From IMG/VR virus record IMGVR_UViG_3300035698_021334, positions 1 to 23,587 of that record: DNA of 23,587 bases. One strand, given 5' to 3'. How positions within the stretch are numbered: the stretch's first letter is position 1; the number at the start of each line of letters is the position of its first letter. Positions 7,492 through 23,509 of the stretch are shown in pieces. This DNA comes from a virus. The notes below the pieces were generated by a model. It did not search any database. It was not told the origin of the DNA and saw only the letters and a program-made list of their open reading frames with translations. Position numbers and translations under genes: made by a program.

Positions 7492-9855
7492 ATGCCAAAA
7501 TATGCTAGACCAAATTCGTACAACGGAAAACAAGGAACACAAGCATGGACGGGGCAATCTCGTTTCGCCAATGACAGTGAGGCCGCTGACGGAGCAATCA
7601 CCAACCTAGCTATTTCCCCTTCAACCCTTGCATCTGCCGTAGGATCTTTAGTCCCTCAAGCAACCACAACTGTTTTCGGATCAGTTAAGCTTACTGACTT
7701 GGGCGCACCTACAGGCACAGTCGCAACTAAATTCTATGCTGATAACTTGGCGATTGCGGGCGCACCTGCATGGAGTGAAACTGTATCGGGGATTGGTCAA
7801 TTGGCTACGTCGCTCGAAACAACTACATATACAAATGATAACGTTGCGATTACTCCACTAAAATTAAGTCTAGCTTTTGCATCCCCACCTGCTATGGGAG
7901 GCACATTGGCTGCTGCCGGTTTGTTTACAACAATCGGAGCAACGGGCCTTGCATCTTTGAGTGCATCAGCAACCATTACTACAGGCGCAACAGCCTTGAA
8001 TCTTGCTTCGGATGCTTCAACGGGCGCGGTGAATATTGGTACTGGTGCAGGAGCTAGAACACTGATTATCGGGAACGTTACTGGTGCAACAGCAGTTACG
8101 ATTAATACTGGAACAGGAGGCATTGCACTTAATACCACTGGTACAGGCGATATGGTATTTGCTTCAGCTGATACAGTATTGATCGATTCAGCGGGCGTTT
8201 TAGAGCTTAACTCTTCAGCAGGTGTGATTGGGATTGGTAACGATGCCGTTTCTCAAAACATTAATATGGGTACAGGCGCAGCAGCCCGAACTATCACTCT
8301 CGGAAATTCAACTGGTGCAACAAGCATTGTTTTGAATGCTGGTACAGGCGCTCTAAATATTGGAACAAACTTAATCGCCCATACAGTCACCATCGGTAAT
8401 GCAACGGGTGCTACTGCCTTAGTTCTCACAACTGGTACAGGAAACTTTGTCCTCGATGGGGTTGGTGCTTCTACATACTCTGTGGGGCCATCTACAACCA
8501 CAGGTACAATCGCAATCGGAGGAACAGCCCAGACAGGGACAACAACTCTTGGATCGTCTTCAGGTACTAATATCGTAGCGATCGGCGCAGGTGAGGGCGC
8601 AACTACGATCAACATTGCGAGAGGAGCAACAGCAGCTAAAGTGGTAAATATTGCTGATGGAGCTGTAGCCAACCTTGTAACGATCGGAACTACTTCAGGC
8701 GCAGCAGCTTTGACCTTGAAGGCAGGAACAGGTAACTTTAGCCTTGATGGAGCTGCAACTACTGCCTATACATTTGCTCCTTCAACAACCTCTGGACTTA
8801 TTAATATCGGCGGGACTGGTGCGAATACCGGTACAGTAACTCTATTTGGAGGTACTGGCGCACAGACAGTAAACCTAGCTAACTCTACAGGTGGTAAAAC
8901 TGTAGCAATTGCAACGGGAGCTGGCGCAAATCTAGTTTCCATCGGTTCAGCTACTGGGGCCGCGTCTCTTACTCTACGTGTTGGAACTGGCAACTATTCT
9001 CTCGATGGTGCAGCAACCTCAACCTATGCAACTGGCGCAAGCACAACCACAGGAACTATAACAATCGGTGGTACTGCGCAAACCGGAACGATGACTTTAG
9101 GGTCTTCTTCAGGTACTAATATTGTAGCTATCGGAGCGGGGGAAGGAGCTACCACTGTCAATATTGCAGGGGGAGCAACGGCTGCTAAAGTTGTAAATAT
9201 TGCAACAGGCGCGGTCGCTAACCTTGTGACCATAGGATCTTCATCTGGTGCGGCAGCCATGACTCTCTTGGTTGGGACTGGTAACTTCTCTCTGAACGGC
9301 GCAGCCACATCGGACTATACATTTGCTCCTTCAACAACCTCTGGTACGATCAACTTTGGTGGTACTGGAGCGAATACAGGGACTGCAACGATTCTTGGGG
9401 GATCTGGAATTCAGGCTATAAACGTCGCCAACTCTACGGGTGTCAAAACTCTACAGATCGCAACAGGAGCCGCGGCGAATATCGTTACTATCGGGTCTAC
9501 TAATACAACGGCTGCGACTACTATCCAAGCTGGATCTGGCAATGTCAATATAGTAGGAAATCTAAGTTTGCCAAGTGCAGCTACGAAAATTATTTTAAAT
9601 GGCGGGGCTGCAACTAGTGCGATAGGAACTGGTACTTTGATTGCTGGAACAGTAACAATAAGCAACACAAATATTGCGTCTTCTGACATAATCCTTATCA
9701 GCAGAAGCAATTTAAACGGGACTCCCGCTTTAGGATTTTTATCCTATACTATCAGTGCAGGTGCAAGCTTCACTGTAGCTTCGTTTGGTGTGACAGGGGC
9801 TGCCGTGGCAACTGATGTAAGTAGCTTTTCGTACATCGTATTCGGCCAATCATGA
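7492..9855 (+). CDS. Repeat-rich tail fibre / tailspike-type protein
   Basis: 787 residues, AGGAG eight bases before the ATG. Residues 1-80 are an attachment-type N-terminus (S-R-F-A-N-D-S-E-A, then A-I-S-P-S-T-L-A-S-A, then T-T-V-F-G-S-V-K-L-T-D), a pattern frequent in phage fibres. Residues about 130-685 are Gly/Thr/Ala/Ile repeats built on units like V-T-I-G-x-x-T-G-A-x-x-L-x-L, expected to form a long beta-helix or triple-stranded fibre. An alternating 97/86-residue double repeat occupies about 315-680. The last 110 residues lose the repeat and look like a globular C-terminal head domain with the common G-T-x-x-I-A-G-T-V-T-I-S-N-T motif, probably receptor-binding. It probably corresponds to the P22 gene 9 slot, though sequence and fold differ. 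Confidence 0.75.
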   Translation: MPKYARPNSYNGKQGTQAWTGQSRFANDSEAADGAITNLAISPSTLASAVGSLVPQATTTVFGSVKLTDLGAPTGTVATKFYADNLAIAGAPAWSETVSGIGQLATSLETTTYTNDNVAITPLKLSLAFASPPAMGGTLAAAGLFTTIGATGLASLSASATITTGATALNLASDASTGAVNIGTGAGARTLIIGNVTGATAVTINTGTGGIALNTTGTGDMVFASADTVLIDSAGVLELNSSAGVIGIGNDAVSQNINMGTGAAARTITLGNSTGATSIVLNAGTGALNIGTNLIAHTVTIGNATGATALVLTTGTGNFVLDGVGASTYSVGPSTTTGTIAIGGTAQTGTTTLGSSSGTNIVAIGAGEGATTINIARGATAAKVVNIADGAVANLVTIGTTSGAAALTLKAGTGNFSLDGAATTAYTFAPSTTSGLINIGGTGANTGTVTLFGGTGAQTVNLANSTGGKTVAIATGAGANLVSIGSATGAASLTLRVGTGNYSLDGAATSTYATGASTTTGTITIGGTAQTGTMTLGSSSGTNIVAIGAGEGATTVNIAGGATAAKVVNIATGAVANLVTIGSSSGAAAMTLLVGTGNFSLNGAATSDYTFAPSTTSGTINFGGTGANTGTATILGGSGIQAINVANSTGVKTLQIATGAAANIVTIGSTNTTAATTIQAGSGNVNIVGNLSLPSAATKIILNGGAATSAIGTGTLIAGTVTISNTNIASSDIILISRSNLNGTPALGFLSYTISAGASFTVASFGVTGAAVATDVSSFSYIVFGQS
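8434..9531 (+). repeat. Alternating A-B-A-B protein repeats inside the fibre gene
   Basis: Unit A spans 8434-8724 and 8983-9273 (97 codons each); unit B spans 8725-8982 and 9274-9531 (86 codons each). Each starts with a G-T-G-N-[FY] motif. The copies are very similar as protein but differ at many third codon positions, so the duplication is old and kept by selection on the protein rather than recent. Confidence 0.8.
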
Positions 9856-11284: not shown

Positions 11285-12725
11285 CCAAGCTGGAATTTTA
11301 GATATTGAGACTCACAATCCTCAAATCCCAACTCGTTTCGAAACAGATGGAGGAGGCGTTGCGATACCTCTTGCCAATATTTTAGAGGTACTCGGCGGGA
11401 CTGGTATTGTAACCAGTGGATCAGGAAATACGGTTACGATCACAGCAACGGCCGGATCTGGACTGACTCTTACGGGCAATGATCTGAATGCGATTTCACC
11501 TGTTCTTGGTAATTGGAATACAATCGGAGTGGGGAGCATTACAATTTCTGGAGCTGGGAATACTTTATCTACGCAACTCACTGGACTTACAAATCATTCA
11601 TTGCTGGTCGGCGCTGGAACTTCTACCATTACTAATCTTGGCGTTGCAGGTAATGGTAAAATTCCTATTGGAAGTACCGGAGCAAATCCAGTTTTAGCAA
11701 ATATCACATCTACTGCCGGGACTATTACAATTACGAATGGGGCTGGAACTATTAACCTAGATCTTGCTGGGGGAGATTTAGGGATTGATTCCTTTATTCC
11801 AAATTCCGGTACTAATCCTGTAGTTCCTACCGCGCTTGGTGTTGTTACTAATGTTGGTACGGGAAGTATAACAACGGTTGGATCATTAAATACGATCACT
11901 ACACAACTAACAGGCCTTACGCAACATGCAGTACTGATCGGAGCTGGAACAGCCACTATAACTAAAGTGGGACCCGTATCCTCAACAGGTGCTGTTTTAA
12001 TGTCCAATGGTGTAGGTAGTGATCCTGTATTTTCAACTGCTACATATCCTCTCACTACAACCGTATCTCAGGTTCTTTTTTCTTCAGCTACCAATACTGT
12101 TTCAGGACTCACCACAGCAAACAACGGGGTTTTGATTACGAGCGCTACTGGAATTCCATCCATTCTAGCTGCTGGGACTACTGGGCAAGTTATGGTTGCC
12201 ACTACAGGATCTCCCCCTACTTTCGGTACAGCCCTTGTCGCAGGCGGAGGGACGGGAGCAACTACTTTAACTGGTGTTTTGCTTGGCAATGGGACAAGTG
12301 CCTTTTCAACCTTAACCTATACTTCTCCAACAAGCTGGACTCCTGAGATACAAATTAACGGATCTAGTGTAGGGCTTACATACACCACTCAAACGGGATC
12401 TTATATGCAAATTGGATCTCTTGTTTTTATTTGGATGAATGTATTTCTTTCGGCTAAAGGAGCAAGTGTAGGAAACGTTACTATTTCCAATTTACCTGTA
12501 ATTACAGGTGCAAGCGGAGGAAGCCAGTCAATCGCTATAGGAAAGTGGCAAAGTGCTGGAGTTGTCAACTTTAGTTACTTAGGATTGTCTTTAAATAACA
12601 ATTCGGTCGTAGGGGATTTCTTTCTGTCTGCTGGAGAGGGGTTGCAAGGTCCTGTAAATTTACTTAACAGTACTATAAATATAAATTTCGGAATAAATAC
12701 TACGGGATTTTATTTTACAAATTAA
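11280..12725 (+). CDS. Second tail-fibre protein, probable ATT start
   Basis: 481 residues if started at ATT 11280; starting at GTG 11529 would drop 83 residues that are plainly part of the protein. Residues about 5-40 hold an N-terminal module (I-L-D-I-E, N-P-Q-I-P-T, T-D-G-G-G-V-A-I-P-L-A-N-I-L) of a kind common at the start of phage fibre repeats. Then come Gly/Thr-rich beta repeats (about 40-370) with G-S-I-T-T-V-G-S-L-N-T-I-T-type units and the T-G-Q-V-M-V-A-T-T-G-S-P-P-T-F motif. The last 130 residues form a C-terminal domain (S-W-T-P-E-I, then G-S-Y-M-Q-I-G-S-L-V-F) seen at the tips of many fibres, likely receptor-binding. ATT starts are rare but known (for example infC). Confidence 0.7.
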   Translation: MSQAGILDIETHNPQIPTRFETDGGGVAIPLANILEVLGGTGIVTSGSGNTVTITATAGSGLTLTGNDLNAISPVLGNWNTIGVGSITISGAGNTLSTQLTGLTNHSLLVGAGTSTITNLGVAGNGKIPIGSTGANPVLANITSTAGTITITNGAGTINLDLAGGDLGIDSFIPNSGTNPVVPTALGVVTNVGTGSITTVGSLNTITTQLTGLTQHAVLIGAGTATITKVGPVSSTGAVLMSNGVGSDPVFSTATYPLTTTVSQVLFSSATNTVSGLTTANNGVLITSATGIPSILAAGTTGQVMVATTGSPPTFGTALVAGGGTGATTLTGVLLGNGTSAFSTLTYTSPTSWTPEIQINGSSVGLTYTTQTGSYMQIGSLVFIWMNVFLSAKGASVGNVTISNLPVITGASGGSQSIAIGKWQSAGVVNFSYLGLSLNNNSVVGDFFLSAGEGLQGPVNLLNSTININFGINTTGFYFTN

Positions 12726-18545: not shown

Positions 18546-19667
18546 ATGAAAAATAATACGTCATTAATAGAAGCTAACTTATCCATCACCATAAAAACAA
18601 CTAAGCACGACAAAGATCATCCTTATGTGAAGATCTCAACGAAAATGATACGAGACAGATCTATCTCTCCAAAATCTAAGGGTATTCTTTGTTATTTCCT
18701 TTCACTTCCAAAAACATGGGAAACTCATCCCAAGGAAGTAGCTCGCTCATTGGGTATTAGCAAAGATCAGGTTTATACAGCTTTAAATGAGCTATTAAAA
18801 GAGGGGTACTCATTTAAGAAAGAAGTCAAAGGGGAGAAGGGAAGGTTTGGATCTATTATTTATGAATTCTACGAGGAGAAACTTCCTTTACATGAACGTT
18901 TTAAAGAAAAGACTTTACATGAACGTTTTAAAGAAAAGACTTTAAATGAACGTTTTAAAGAAAAGAGTACCGTGTCGGCAAAACCGGATCCGGACTTCCC
19001 GGATCCGGACTTCCCGGATCCGGATATCCCTCCTATAGTAAATATTGACCCTAGTAAGAAACCACAAACAAATTCTTCTTCCTCCTCTCCTCCTTCGGAG
19101 TCGCGGAGGGATGATGATGATGAAAAGATGGTCGGTTCTTCTGAAGAGAAGATTCCTAGAAATCCTAAAAATGCAAAACCTCTTTCTGGCGAACAGAAAT
19201 GGAAAAATAATGCAATATCTCAGGGATATTCCGAAAAAGAAGCCAATCAAACATGGGAAAAATATATTAAGATGCCCCCTGGGACGGTCAAACACCCCTC
19301 AGGATGGTTAAAGAGAGATTTGGAATCTGCTCAACTTACTAGCGACAAAGAAGAAGAACTTTCTTTTCGAGGGAAATCTCGGGCATCTGACTTAGAAAAA
19401 GATTTTATCGCTAAGGAAGTTTCTCAAGCCGAATCAGCGAAGGAAGCGATTAAGACCATAGCAACAAACAAAAAGATCCTAGAAGGCTATAAAGATATAC
19501 CGTGGATTGACCTCAAGAAATCTGACAATGGCAATGAATATCTTATCCTACTCTCATCGGAAAGATCCTTGAATAATACTTCCGTTTCTTATTGTGATCC
19601 GTTCCTGCCATCTCTTTTAGAAAGATTTGAGAATGAATGGGCTAGAGAAAAAATTACTTCAGGTTGA
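18546..19667 (+). CDS. Replication initiator / replisome organiser (lambda O-like role)
   Basis: 373 residues, AAGGAG before ATG 18546. Residues about 25-110 form a winged helix common to phage initiators (H-P-Y-V-K-I-S, then S-P-K-S-K-G-I-L-C-Y-F-L-S-L-P, then the helix-turn-helix V-A-R-S-L-G-I-S-K-D-Q-V-Y and E-G-Y). Residues 115-161 are two sets of short repeats (L-H-E-R-F-K-E-K-T three times, P-D-P-D-F three times) whose DNA resembles iterons. Residues about 165-205 are Ser/Pro/Asp-rich and disordered, and the C-terminal 150 residues contain K-H-P-S-G-W-L-K-R-D-L-E and probably contact the helicase. The DnaB gene follows one small gene later. The 189 bases upstream hold no gene; I see only weak promoter-like AT-rich stretches there. 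Confidence 0.75.
   Translation: MKNNTSLIEANLSITIKTTKHDKDHPYVKISTKMIRDRSISPKSKGILCYFLSLPKTWETHPKEVARSLGISKDQVYTALNELLKEGYSFKKEVKGEKGRFGSIIYEFYEEKLPLHERFKEKTLHERFKEKTLNERFKEKSTVSAKPDPDFPDPDFPDPDIPPIVNIDPSKKPQTNSSSSSPPSESRRDDDDEKMVGSSEEKIPRNPKNAKPLSGEQKWKNNAISQGYSEKEANQTWEKYIKMPPGTVKHPSGWLKRDLESAQLTSDKEEELSFRGKSRASDLEKDFIAKEVSQAESAKEAIKTIATNKKILEGYKDIPWIDLKKSDNGNEYLILLSSERSLNNTSVSYCDPFLPSLLERFENEWAREKITSG
18887..18967 (+). repeat. Three tandem 27-bp repeats in the initiator gene (iteron-like)
   Basis: Units at 18887-18913, 18914-18940 and 18941-18967, the first two identical and the third differing at two positions (C to A at position 5, C to G at the last). Each contains ATGAACGTTTTAAAG and an inverted pair CTTTA/TAAAG across a unit boundary; in the last copy the arms extend to CTTTAAA/TTTAAAG. 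They encode L-H/N-E-R-F-K-E-K-T. Lambda O carries its origin iterons in the same place. Confidence 0.85.
18984..19028 (+). repeat. Three tandem 15-bp GC-rich palindromic repeats
   Basis: Units at 18984-18998, 18999-19013 and 19014-19028, each beginning with the perfect palindrome CCGGATCCGG; the third ends GGATATC instead of GGACTTC. They encode P-D-P-D-F. The GC content is far above the surrounding gene, and an AT-rich stretch follows (about 19030-19080). Confidence 0.85.
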
Positions 19668-19723: not shown

Positions 19724-20104
19724 GTGAAAATAGAATCCGCAGGGCTTCAGGAAAGAAACGATAAGCAGATTTTAAGAATTGCCAATTTGCCGAACTATTT
19801 AAAGCTTGAAATTATCCTTGCTTGGTCGGTCGGGAAACCTAATTTTAATCCAAATTTTCCAAACAGTTGTCTGAATCAGATTTGTCGAGGCCTTTCTTTG
19901 TCAGTAAGACAAATAGCTGTTATCGACAAGATTTTGATCAACCATGAGATTTGTATCGATTCGTGGCGGGATTCCGATCTTAGAAAAAGAGCGTTAAATG
20001 ATTTTTTCCGTAGTCGTCCGTTTTTTCACTATTGCGAATCAGGTTCCGCGGAAGAGAGATATGAAGATCGAGCTCTAACCCCCAACGAATGCAGAGCGGA
20101 ATAA
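19724..20104 (+). CDS. Small phage replication-region protein
   Basis: 126 residues from GTG 19724, with GAGGG eight bases upstream. The middle holds a pattern frequent in phage replication genes (a short helix, then L-S-L-S-V-R-Q-I-A-V-I-D-K-I-L, about 57-71), often found in primase- or helicase-loader-like proteins next to dnaB. The N-terminus is helical; the C-terminus is polar and disordered. Directly abuts the DnaB start (TAAATG). By position between an initiator and a helicase, a loader (lambda P-like) is attractive, but no ATPase motif is present. Confidence 0.6.
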   Translation: MKIESAGLQERNDKQILRIANLPNYLKLEIILAWSVGKPNFNPNFPNSCLNQICRGLSLSVRQIAVIDKILINHEICIDSWRDSDLRKRALNDFFRSRPFFHYCESGSAEERYEDRALTPNECRAE

Positions 20105-21511
20105 ATGAAAACAGAAGCTTTTGATATCGAGGTTGAGGCACGAGTTCTTGGAGGTTGTTTGAAAAGTTCGGATTGGGCTGGGCAAGTCATTTCGGAAGTG
20201 GTCGTAGGATATTTCTTTTGCTCCAGGAACGCTTCATTGTACTCAAAAATCAATTATCTTTACGAACATGAACTTCCAGTCACACCAGAGAACATAATTG
20301 CCAGAATCGACTCTAAAGACGATTTGATGATGGCTCTATCGACAGTCCTTCAGCTGGCCTCCACGGGATTCAGTCTCTCGGACTTGATCTCAACGCTCAA
20401 AGAGCTTTATATCAAACGCGAACTCCAGAGGCTTTTTGAATTGCTTGAAGGGCAGATCAAGACAAAAGAGCCTGACGGGCTACAGGTTCTCAGAAAGGTC
20501 GAGGAGGGACTCTTCCAAATATCTCAAGGCAACGAAGGGAAAATCTTCAAAAACATCAAAGAACTCATCGAGACTCCCGAGCACGCTTTAAAGCTCTATC
20601 AAGCCCGCCAGCAGCTATTTATGGAAGGCAAAACGGCCATTAAAGGAATTCCTACAGGATATCACGACCTCGATGCGCTTGTTGGTGGTTTCTGCCCAGG
20701 GCATTTAATGATTGTCGGTGCTCGCCCGGGGATGGGTAAAACTACATTTGCTCTGAATCTAATCGAAAAGCTCCTCGACAAAAACATTCACTCGCTCTTC
20801 TTTAGTTTGGAAATGCCAGCGAACGAAATTATGGAAAAGTTTTTGTGCCAAGTTGCTGAAGTCGAGTTCTCTAAGTTCTCTCAAGGCTCTTGCCAAGGGG
20901 CTGATTTTCAGAAAATGGTCGGCGCATCAGATAAGCTCATTAAAAAGAATACGATCGTTATCGATGATCAGCCCGCCCTCTCAATCGACAAGATTCGTAT
21001 CAGGGCGATGAGAGCAAAACGACTCTATGATATCAAGGTAATTTTCATTGACTATGTTCAACTCGTTTCTTCAAACAGAAAAGGAATAGATATTCGGCAT
21101 CTTGAGATAGCCGATATTTCTCGAACGCTTAAACAACTTGCAAAAGAATTGCAGGTTACGGTTGTAGGTCTTTGTCAGCTCAATCGCGAAACCGAAAAGA
21201 GGGAATCTAAAATTCCTTTCATTTCTGATTTGAGAGAGAGCGGATCTTTGGAGGCCGATGCCGATGAAATTATTTTACTGCATCGCCCTGAAATGTATGA
21301 TCAATACGATAGCCCGGGGCTGATTCATCTTCTATTAGCAAAAAATCGCTTTGGAGCTACGGGCGTAATTAAGTTAGTCTTTCAAAAAGAAATTGGAGCC
21401 ATGAAATCTTATGCAAACCCTCTCAAGCACGGTGCTACCGTATCTCAAACTGTACATGACTCAGAAGCTTCCTACAATCGTCTTTCAAAGAATTTCAATC
21501 CTGATGAATGA
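20105..21511 (+). CDS. dnaB: DnaB-type replicative helicase
   Basis: 468 residues, the normal DnaB length. Hexameric 5'-3' helicase that drives the replication fork. N-terminal primase-interacting domain (about 1-120), linker helix, and RecA-like domain with Walker A G-A-R-P-G-M-G-K-T (205-213), catalytic E in S-L-E-M-P (about 234-238), Walker B V-I-F-I-D-Y (312-317), motif G-L-C-Q-L-N-R-E (355-362) and the arginine-finger segment K-N-R-F-G-A-T-G (413-420). Starts immediately after the preceding stop and overlaps the next gene by eight bases. The phage thus supplies its own helicase rather than recruiting only the host's. Confidence 0.93.
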   Translation: MKTEAFDIEVEARVLGGCLKSSDWAGQVISEVVVGYFFCSRNASLYSKINYLYEHELPVTPENIIARIDSKDDLMMALSTVLQLASTGFSLSDLISTLKELYIKRELQRLFELLEGQIKTKEPDGLQVLRKVEEGLFQISQGNEGKIFKNIKELIETPEHALKLYQARQQLFMEGKTAIKGIPTGYHDLDALVGGFCPGHLMIVGARPGMGKTTFALNLIEKLLDKNIHSLFFSLEMPANEIMEKFLCQVAEVEFSKFSQGSCQGADFQKMVGASDKLIKKNTIVIDDQPALSIDKIRIRAMRAKRLYDIKVIFIDYVQLVSSNRKGIDIRHLEIADISRTLKQLAKELQVTVVGLCQLNRETEKRESKIPFISDLRESGSLEADADEIILLHRPEMYDQYDSPGLIHLLLAKNRFGATGVIKLVFQKEIGAMKSYANPLKHGATVSQTVHDSEASYNRLSKNFNPDE

Positions 21512-23029: not shown

Positions 23030-23112
23030 CGTGGTACCTTCATCTCGATTGCTGTTTTCAACATGGAAATAAAAGCAAATTGTGCATTCGCAGATAGGTC
23101 TTCAAGATTCAT
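23026..23112 (-). CDS. 28-residue coupled peptide
   Basis: ATG 23112 follows AGAGG by five bases and overlaps the upstream stop as ATGA; its own stop overlaps the next ATG the same way. The peptide is one amphipathic helix (N-L-E-D-L-S-A-N-A-Q-F-A-F-I-S-M-L-K-T-A-I-E). Being locked between two genes by overlaps at both ends is the main evidence that it is translated. Confidence 0.55.
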   Translation of the reverse strand: MNLEDLSANAQFAFISMLKTAIEMKVPR

Positions 23113-23315
23113 TTTTTCCTCTCTTCAATTGCACAGAGTCTTCCATGGAAATCTTTAGATTCGGCCTCGATCGCTCTAACTGCATCGATGAGATCCCTTC
23201 TCAACTGTTTGCTATCCTTCTCAAAGGAACGTCTGTCACTAGTCGATTCTGATCGACTCCACAGAAAGAGCCCCGCAATGGTGACTAAAAGTATTAAAAA
23301 TTGTGCCCATTCCAT
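23109..23315 (-). CDS. Small membrane protein, paralogue 2
   Basis: 68 residues from ATG 23315, overlapping the upstream stop (TAATG). N-terminal membrane helix (about 3-19), then W-S-R-S-E-S-x-x-D-R-R and a long charged helix with Q-L-R-R-D-L, K-D-F-H-G-R-L and E-E-R-K-K at the end. It shares F-L-W-[ST]-R-x-E with D-R-R and L-R-x-D-L with the neighbouring gene, so the two arose by duplication. Similar one-span coiled-coil ORFs occur in other phages and plasmids; role unknown, with entry exclusion or membrane anchoring as options. Confidence 0.65.
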   Translation of the reverse strand: MEWAQFLILLVTIAGLFLWSRSESTSDRRSFEKDSKQLRRDLIDAVRAIEAESKDFHGRLCAIEERKK

Positions 23316-23509
23316 TATTTTCTCCCCATTTTATCCAGTCTCTTCCAAATCCTTCCTAGATCATCTCGGAGCTTCTCAACGGAATCACTCCCATGTCTAC
23401 GATCCTCATTAGCTTCTCCCCTTGTCCACAGGAACATCGTAAGCATGCATCCTACAATGGTGAAGACTCCAAAACAAATCGCTATGATTAATCCTATACT
23501 ATTGTCCAT
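23315..23509 (-). CDS. Small membrane protein, paralogue 1
   Basis: 64 residues, first gene of the leftward cluster; GAGGAA about five bases before ATG 23509. Membrane helix at about 6-28 (I-G-L-I-I-A-I-C-F-G-V-F-T-I-V-G-C-M-L), then F-L-W-T-R-G-E-A-N-E-D-R-R and a charged helix ending in L-R-D-D-L-G-R-I-W-K-R-L-D. It shares the core pattern with the following gene but has a shorter tail. Predicted to sit in the inner membrane with the helix in the cytoplasm. Confidence 0.65.
   Translation of the reverse strand: MDNSIGLIIAICFGVFTIVGCMLTMFLWTRGEANEDRRHGSDSVEKLRDDLGRIWKRLDKMGRK

Follow-up and report, generated by a model that had tools for sequence, protein, structure and literature searches.

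An origin of replication inside the initiator gene is a familiar arrangement. The lambda origin lies within gene O and consists of four palindromic iterons with an AT-rich region to their right (PMC6022878). According to a second account (PMC5703833), the origin of pSK41 lies within rep, where the N-terminal domain of the protein binds four Rep boxes and the linker encoded there is dispensable as protein; the same account describes rep of the Staphylococcus aureus plasmid pPR9 as a chimera with a PF13730 N-terminus, whose rep region supported an autonomously replicating mini-replicon. Here we analysed the 23,587-bp virus record IMGVR_UViG_3300035698_021334 of IMG/VR, which was taken whole (hereafter the window) and is possibly a fragment. 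Inside its initiator gene stands an array of 15-bp repeats; judged from sequence comparison, these are almost certainly the iterons of a predicted replication origin. Positions 18970-19060 as a whole are very probably the origin of this phage, placed in its own initiator gene, and this prediction includes the binding, opening and loading steps proposed below. The elements concerned are as follows.

18546 to 19667, + strand: initiator gene, 373 amino acids (HTH_36 and PHROG 4707 matches)
18886 to 18966, + strand: three 27-bp direct repeats, peptides LHERFKEKT (twice) and LNERFKEKS; lineage-specific, DNA function not supported
18970 to 18983, + strand: iteron 0, degenerate, CCGTGTCGG followed by CAAAA (14 bp), in a codon frame unlike that of copies 1 to 3
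18984 to 18998, + strand: iteron 1, CCGGATCCGG followed by ACTTC (repeat, motif and palindrome scans)
18999 to 19013, + strand: iteron 2, CCGGATCCGG followed by ACTTC (same scans)
19014 to 19028, + strand: iteron 3, CCGGATCCGG followed by ATATC (same scans)
19034 to 19060, + strand: AT-rich element with two TAGTAA motifs (19036-19041 and 19052-19057), candidate unwinding element (stability and motif scans)

A sequence-only reading of this DNA had reported three 27-bp and three 15-bp repeats in the initiator gene, and both arrays were indeed located, in frame, within 18546-19667. Two details needed correction: the 27-bp array begins at 18886 rather than 18887, and the three near-identical 15-bp copies are preceded by a fourth, degenerate one that had been missed. 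Iterons 1 and 2 are identical and iteron 3 matches them at 87%. Iteron 0 is invisible in the peptide because it precedes the first perfect unit by 14 bp and hence stands in another codon frame. The motif CCGGATCCGG has exactly three matches in the window, each of them in the array; admitting one mismatch raises the number to five, against 0.31 expected.

The codons of the array are constrained as DNA. All six proline codons in it are CCG, compared with 13% of those elsewhere in the window, and the iteron 0 codons ACC, GTG and TCG are each rare in the window. For the four-iteron segment, a codon choice as extreme in its rare codons arose in 1 of 10,000 recodings (p = 0.0001), a value that is overstated if the copies arose by duplication and are not independent; a single 15-bp unit gave p = 0.0096. 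The rare codons of the 15-bp array are thus a within-genome sign of DNA constraint that is independent of any relatives.

For comparison, relatives from IMG/VR, phages and plasmids were reduced to 48 non-redundant loci, including the window. Because a single peptide pattern supplied most of them, Firmicute phages are over-represented in the sample. The initiators are distant: in their first ~110 residues, identity is about 30-44%. Close relatives were not found among the viral and genome contigs searched, nor was any relative with the 27-bp array peptide; a scan of degenerate DNA for the peptide PDPDFPDPD likewise gave no relatives. One genome-contig match (L097) was rejected as a GntR-type regulator, by its appearance, rather than an initiator.

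At least two CCG-n(3-5)-CGG palindromes follow the winged-helix domain in 27 of the 48 loci, the window among them, and their spacing is 15 bp in 45 cases, 14 bp in six and 16 bp in four. When the linkers were recoded synonymously with the codon usage of each locus, 13 such palindromes were expected and 97 observed, although the loci counted were also those from which the motif had been defined. The number of recurrent inverted repeats in the linkers, which does not depend on the choice of arms, agrees with this count (119 observed, 4.8 under recoding). Seventeen loci keep a single codon frame (ten in frame 0, seven in frame 1), while ten mix frames within one gene. Periods that are not a multiple of three occur in L009 and L062 (16 bp) and in L019, L026 and L032 (14 bp), where the DNA repeats and the peptide does not. 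Hence it is the DNA rather than the peptide that is conserved, and selection on the linker peptide cannot explain the palindromes. The sequence-only reading had named peptide repeats kept with freely varied codons as the observation that would speak against it; the opposite was seen, with palindrome and 14-16-bp spacing retained in the DNA of relatives that differ in peptide and frame. With four CCG-n-CGG palindromes at 18970-19028, spaced by 14-15 bp and constrained as DNA, the window carries the pattern of the family. In one relative, three perfect DnaA boxes (TTATCCACA) stand on the + strand between CCG..CGG iterons (L021:1620-1658). They are the only ones in the 48 linkers, and their presence suggests a variant form of this origin type in which host DnaA is used as well. 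Near the window array, DnaA boxes were not found.

The same position is occupied in the nearest relatives with readable linkers, L093 and L014, which share 44% identity with the window in the domain (L013, also close, has a short open reading frame (ORF) and was left out as uninformative). L093 carries two CCGGCCCGG palindromes 14 bp apart and L014 carries one, in the same place as the window array. Their codon frames are 2 and 1 in L093 and 1 in L014, as against frame 0 for the three perfect copies of the window, and they sit in quite different peptides (PNGENRPGSSGPENPG and PNLENQTGSSGPENPV). When aligned locally with the window array, these two linkers were outscored by no more than 1 of 300 shuffles. 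As the palindromes of the window start after the 27-bp array, they lie ~80 bp farther from the domain than in L093 and L014. L093 also has in common with the window a YqaJ gene, a small membrane-protein gene and a tail-region protein, and a longer piece of the L014 contig (L094) has the YqaJ gene.

The sequence-only reading placed an AT-rich stretch after the repeats. Such a stretch is present on the 3' side but modest: measured at 50 bp, it ranks in the top ~4% of the window for low stability, and the 27-bp array, with its still lower stability, in the top ~1%. Neither belongs to the stability minima of the window. Across the family, 28 of 30 array-bearing loci have their least stable flank on the 3' side. 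The window is one of the other two, since the 27-bp array renders its 5' flank slightly the less stable. The 3' flanks are further marked by TA[CG]TAA motifs in a strand-specific manner (55 on the + strand against 11.3 expected under recoding; five on the - strand against 4.4), and the element is weaker in the window than in most relatives. Strand-specific arrays of TA[CG]TAA or TAATAATGAT are seen 3' of the iterons in L010, L077 and L051, for example, as well as in pPR9 (L106:24085-24142). The element resembles the strand-specific DnaA-trio or DnaD recognition element of Bacillus subtilis oriC (PMC10201434), and this is a resemblance only.

The initiator consists of a winged-helix domain (about residues 11-112), a linker encoded by the origin region (about 113-210) and a C-terminal domain. 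The first has a PF13730 (HTH_36) match at E 4.9e-6 and 26.7 bits, over the cut-off of 25. The best PHROG is 4707, a replication initiation protein (E 1.4e-14); the O-like PHROGs 678 and 345 match weakly (E 4e-5 and 1.6e-4) and are outranked by five other initiator or DnaD-like PHROGs. No RepA_N (PF06970) match was obtained at E up to 0.1, which places the protein outside RepA_N as Pfam defines it. The C-terminal domain was assigned to no family, and a phage search with the C-terminal half was negative at E up to 1. The AlphaFold model contains a confident domain at about residues 25-115. Fold comparison of residues 11-112 matched primosomal DnaB (5wtn, Z 10.0, rmsd 2.6 over 96 residues), domain 1 of RctB (Z 8.1), DnaD (2v79, Z 6.9) and pSK41-type RepA (4pt7, Z 7.6, rmsd 7.2 over 104 residues; 5kbj, a Rep-DNA complex, Z 7.4, rmsd 6.1 over 102), where a Z below 8 may mean a common fold only and several RepA rows have a high rmsd. 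Foldseek alone returned no match at E ≤ 0.001. Since sequence profiles against the PDB gave only MarR/SarA-like winged-helix proteins (E about 0.01), the link to RepA and DnaD is one of fold comparison only. The modelled domain appears to bear a modest resemblance in fold class to primosomal DnaB and pSK41 RepA.

How the described systems compare can now be stated. pPR9 shares with the window an HTH_36-type N-terminal domain and, in the same place, repeats of CCGGATACGG, which match CCGGATCCGG at nine of ten bases. Reading the gene sequence, we found these repeats in the rep linker, followed by an AT-rich TAATAATACTAAT array; the mini-replicon result, as given in the available part of its source, concerns the rep region, and the repeats were recognised here. 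Unlike the window, pPR9 has a pSK41-type C-terminal domain, a much stronger AT-rich array and no 27-bp array. The RepA_N protein of pSK41 appears to have a modestly similar N-terminal fold (the Z 7.4-7.6 matches above), whereas the window differs from it in Pfam family, in iteron sequence and in a C-terminal domain without sequence relation. The staphylococcal phage ROSA (L008), with a Firmicute HTH_36 initiator, has a homologous winged-helix domain (29.5% over 103 amino acids) and, like the window, a 15-bp in-frame array after the domain, which in ROSA is followed by an AT-rich array; however, its array sequence has diverged (CGGAAAACGGAAAAA types) and it lacks a 27-bp array. Lambda differs in its 18-bp iterons, the similarity to O-like PHROGs is weak, and the phage of the window encodes its own DnaB helicase. 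The arrangement was once read as not that of lambda, a view now weakened: the fourth copy gives four palindromic iterons that are followed by a weak AT-rich region, inside the initiator gene, as in the lambda layout (PMC6022878). On most features examined, the window appears to belong with the HTH_36 initiators of phages and plasmids that have an intragenic origin. Our literature search found no description of HTH_36 iterons, and since most subscription papers lay outside it, this is no proof of novelty.

In the mechanism that we propose, dimers of the N-terminal winged-helix domain of the initiator would bind the four CCG-n(3-4)-CGG palindromes, spaced by 14-15 bp. The loaded array would open the adjoining AT-rich, TAGTAA-containing DNA on its 3' side, where the phage's own DnaB helicase would then be loaded. 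Several results weigh against an origin at this place. The 3' element is weak, with two TAGTAA within 30 bp of the array and 14 window-wide where nine are expected. Cumulative GC skew, which had been proposed as a check at 18.9-19.1 kb, shows no turning point at the array. With distant relatives alone, conservation had to be judged at about 30-44% domain identity, and about 40% of the 48 loci have fewer than two CCG..CGG motifs, among them three with the same layout but with arms of the CCA..TGG type.

Nothing in the locus is unusual except the 27-bp array, which lies outside the family pattern. The sequence-only reading had assigned both arrays to the origin, a claim that is well supported for the 15-bp array alone. 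The first two 27-bp units (18886-18912 and 18913-18939) are identical and the third (18940-18966) matches at 96%; the core of the 27-mer is confined to the array in the window (three occurrences against 0.17 expected at up to three mismatches). It is absent from L093 and L014, and no comparable non-iteron tandem array was seen upstream of the iterons in the surveyed relatives, the one exception being L010, with a pair of A-rich 13-bp units of low score. Most likely, the array is a recent lineage-specific tandem duplication of coding sequence that lengthens the helix after the domain. Probably, though far from certainly, it matters only as peptide, namely as a duplicated charged helix extending the winged-helix domain, and this is our preferred view of it, compatible with an origin in the 15-bp array. 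Its codon usage is ordinary (p 0.51-0.65), and AlphaFold predicts one helix at residues 115-140, but the confidence over this block is only 83 and falls to 51, and no relative with the same peptide was available for a comparison of conservation. At 18781, within a helix of the domain itself, a similar segment agrees in 19 of 27 bases and encodes LNELLKE (10 of 500 shuffles did equally well); it may, with weak support, be the source from which the 27-mer descended.

The 27-bp array might instead be a second functional element of origin DNA, either a 5' unwinding element or a second class of site for the initiator or a host protein. It abuts the iterons, it is 75% AT and gives the window its less stable 5' flank, its copies are nearly identical as DNA, and inverted arms of 7 bp occur in copy 3 (p about 0.05). 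Nevertheless, we consider such a role unlikely. The AT content of a single unit is unremarkable (p 0.13), the arms of copies 1 and 2 are near chance (p 0.19-0.24), recent duplication explains the identity of the copies equally well, and the codons and the relatives speak as described above. Given its absence from L093 and L014, its ordinary codons, its near-chance arms and the low-confidence helix predicted for its peptide, the earlier suggestion of two binding proteins or binding modes is not supported. Slightly less probable again is that the lineage has gained a functionally distinct element, serving either for additional unwinding or as another recognition site, that makes the origin two-sided; if true, this origin would be unlike the iteron-then-AT layout of its relatives. 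Returning to the peptide reading, the array at most adds easily melted DNA 5' of the iterons.

The origin assignment itself has two rivals. The palindromes, as sites that adjoin the gene of a winged-helix protein, could serve only as an autoregulatory operator; yet they lie ~420 bp inside the gene rather than at a promoter, and sites of this class recur in the rep genes of plasmids, among them the pPR9 replicon, which makes this very improbable. Least probable of all, if barely so, is that both arrays are mere peptide repeats of a disordered linker with the origin elsewhere: both keep the reading frame, each with a period divisible by three, and low complexity is common in the linkers of such proteins, but the 14- and 16-bp periods and mixed frames of the family, its 97 palindromes where 13 are expected, the rare codons and the precedents of pPR9 and pSK41 all stand against it.

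Downstream of the initiator gene lie the following.

19724 to 20104, + strand: ORF of 126 amino acids between initiator and helicase, no Pfam or PHROG match
20105 to 21511, + strand: DnaB-like replicative helicase gene (DnaB_C E 7e-80; PHROG 19 E 5e-83)

A helicase gene downstream of the initiator, as the sequence-only reading had it, is thus confirmed. Judged by its position, the 126-amino-acid ORF may encode a helicase loader or a partner in the primosome. Upstream of the initiator, YqaJ, RecT-like and RusA genes were recognised by Pfam. Elsewhere in the window, 7492-9855 and 11529-12725 encode long repetitive proteins with repeats of the TIGTTSGAAALTLKAGTGNFSLDGAA type, which may be tail fibres or adhesins; the former has no PHROG match. 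Two small adjoining ORFs on the - strand (23109-23315 and 23315-23509) each have an N-terminal hydrophobic stretch and a charged tail. They are holin-like by appearance only, with no PHROG match, and the first has two matches among the neighbouring ORFs of L093.

Taken together, the family yields a sequence rule for origins: CCG-n(3-5)-CGG palindromes at 14-16-bp spacing right after the HTH_36 domain, and then an AT-rich TA[CG]TAA element, whose likeness to the DnaA-trio or DnaD element of B. subtilis oriC deserves attention. The rule covers a large and little-studied class of phage and plasmid initiators. As it is conserved in DNA across reading frames, the origins of uncultured phages can therefore be predicted, and the predictions are testable on small plasmids.
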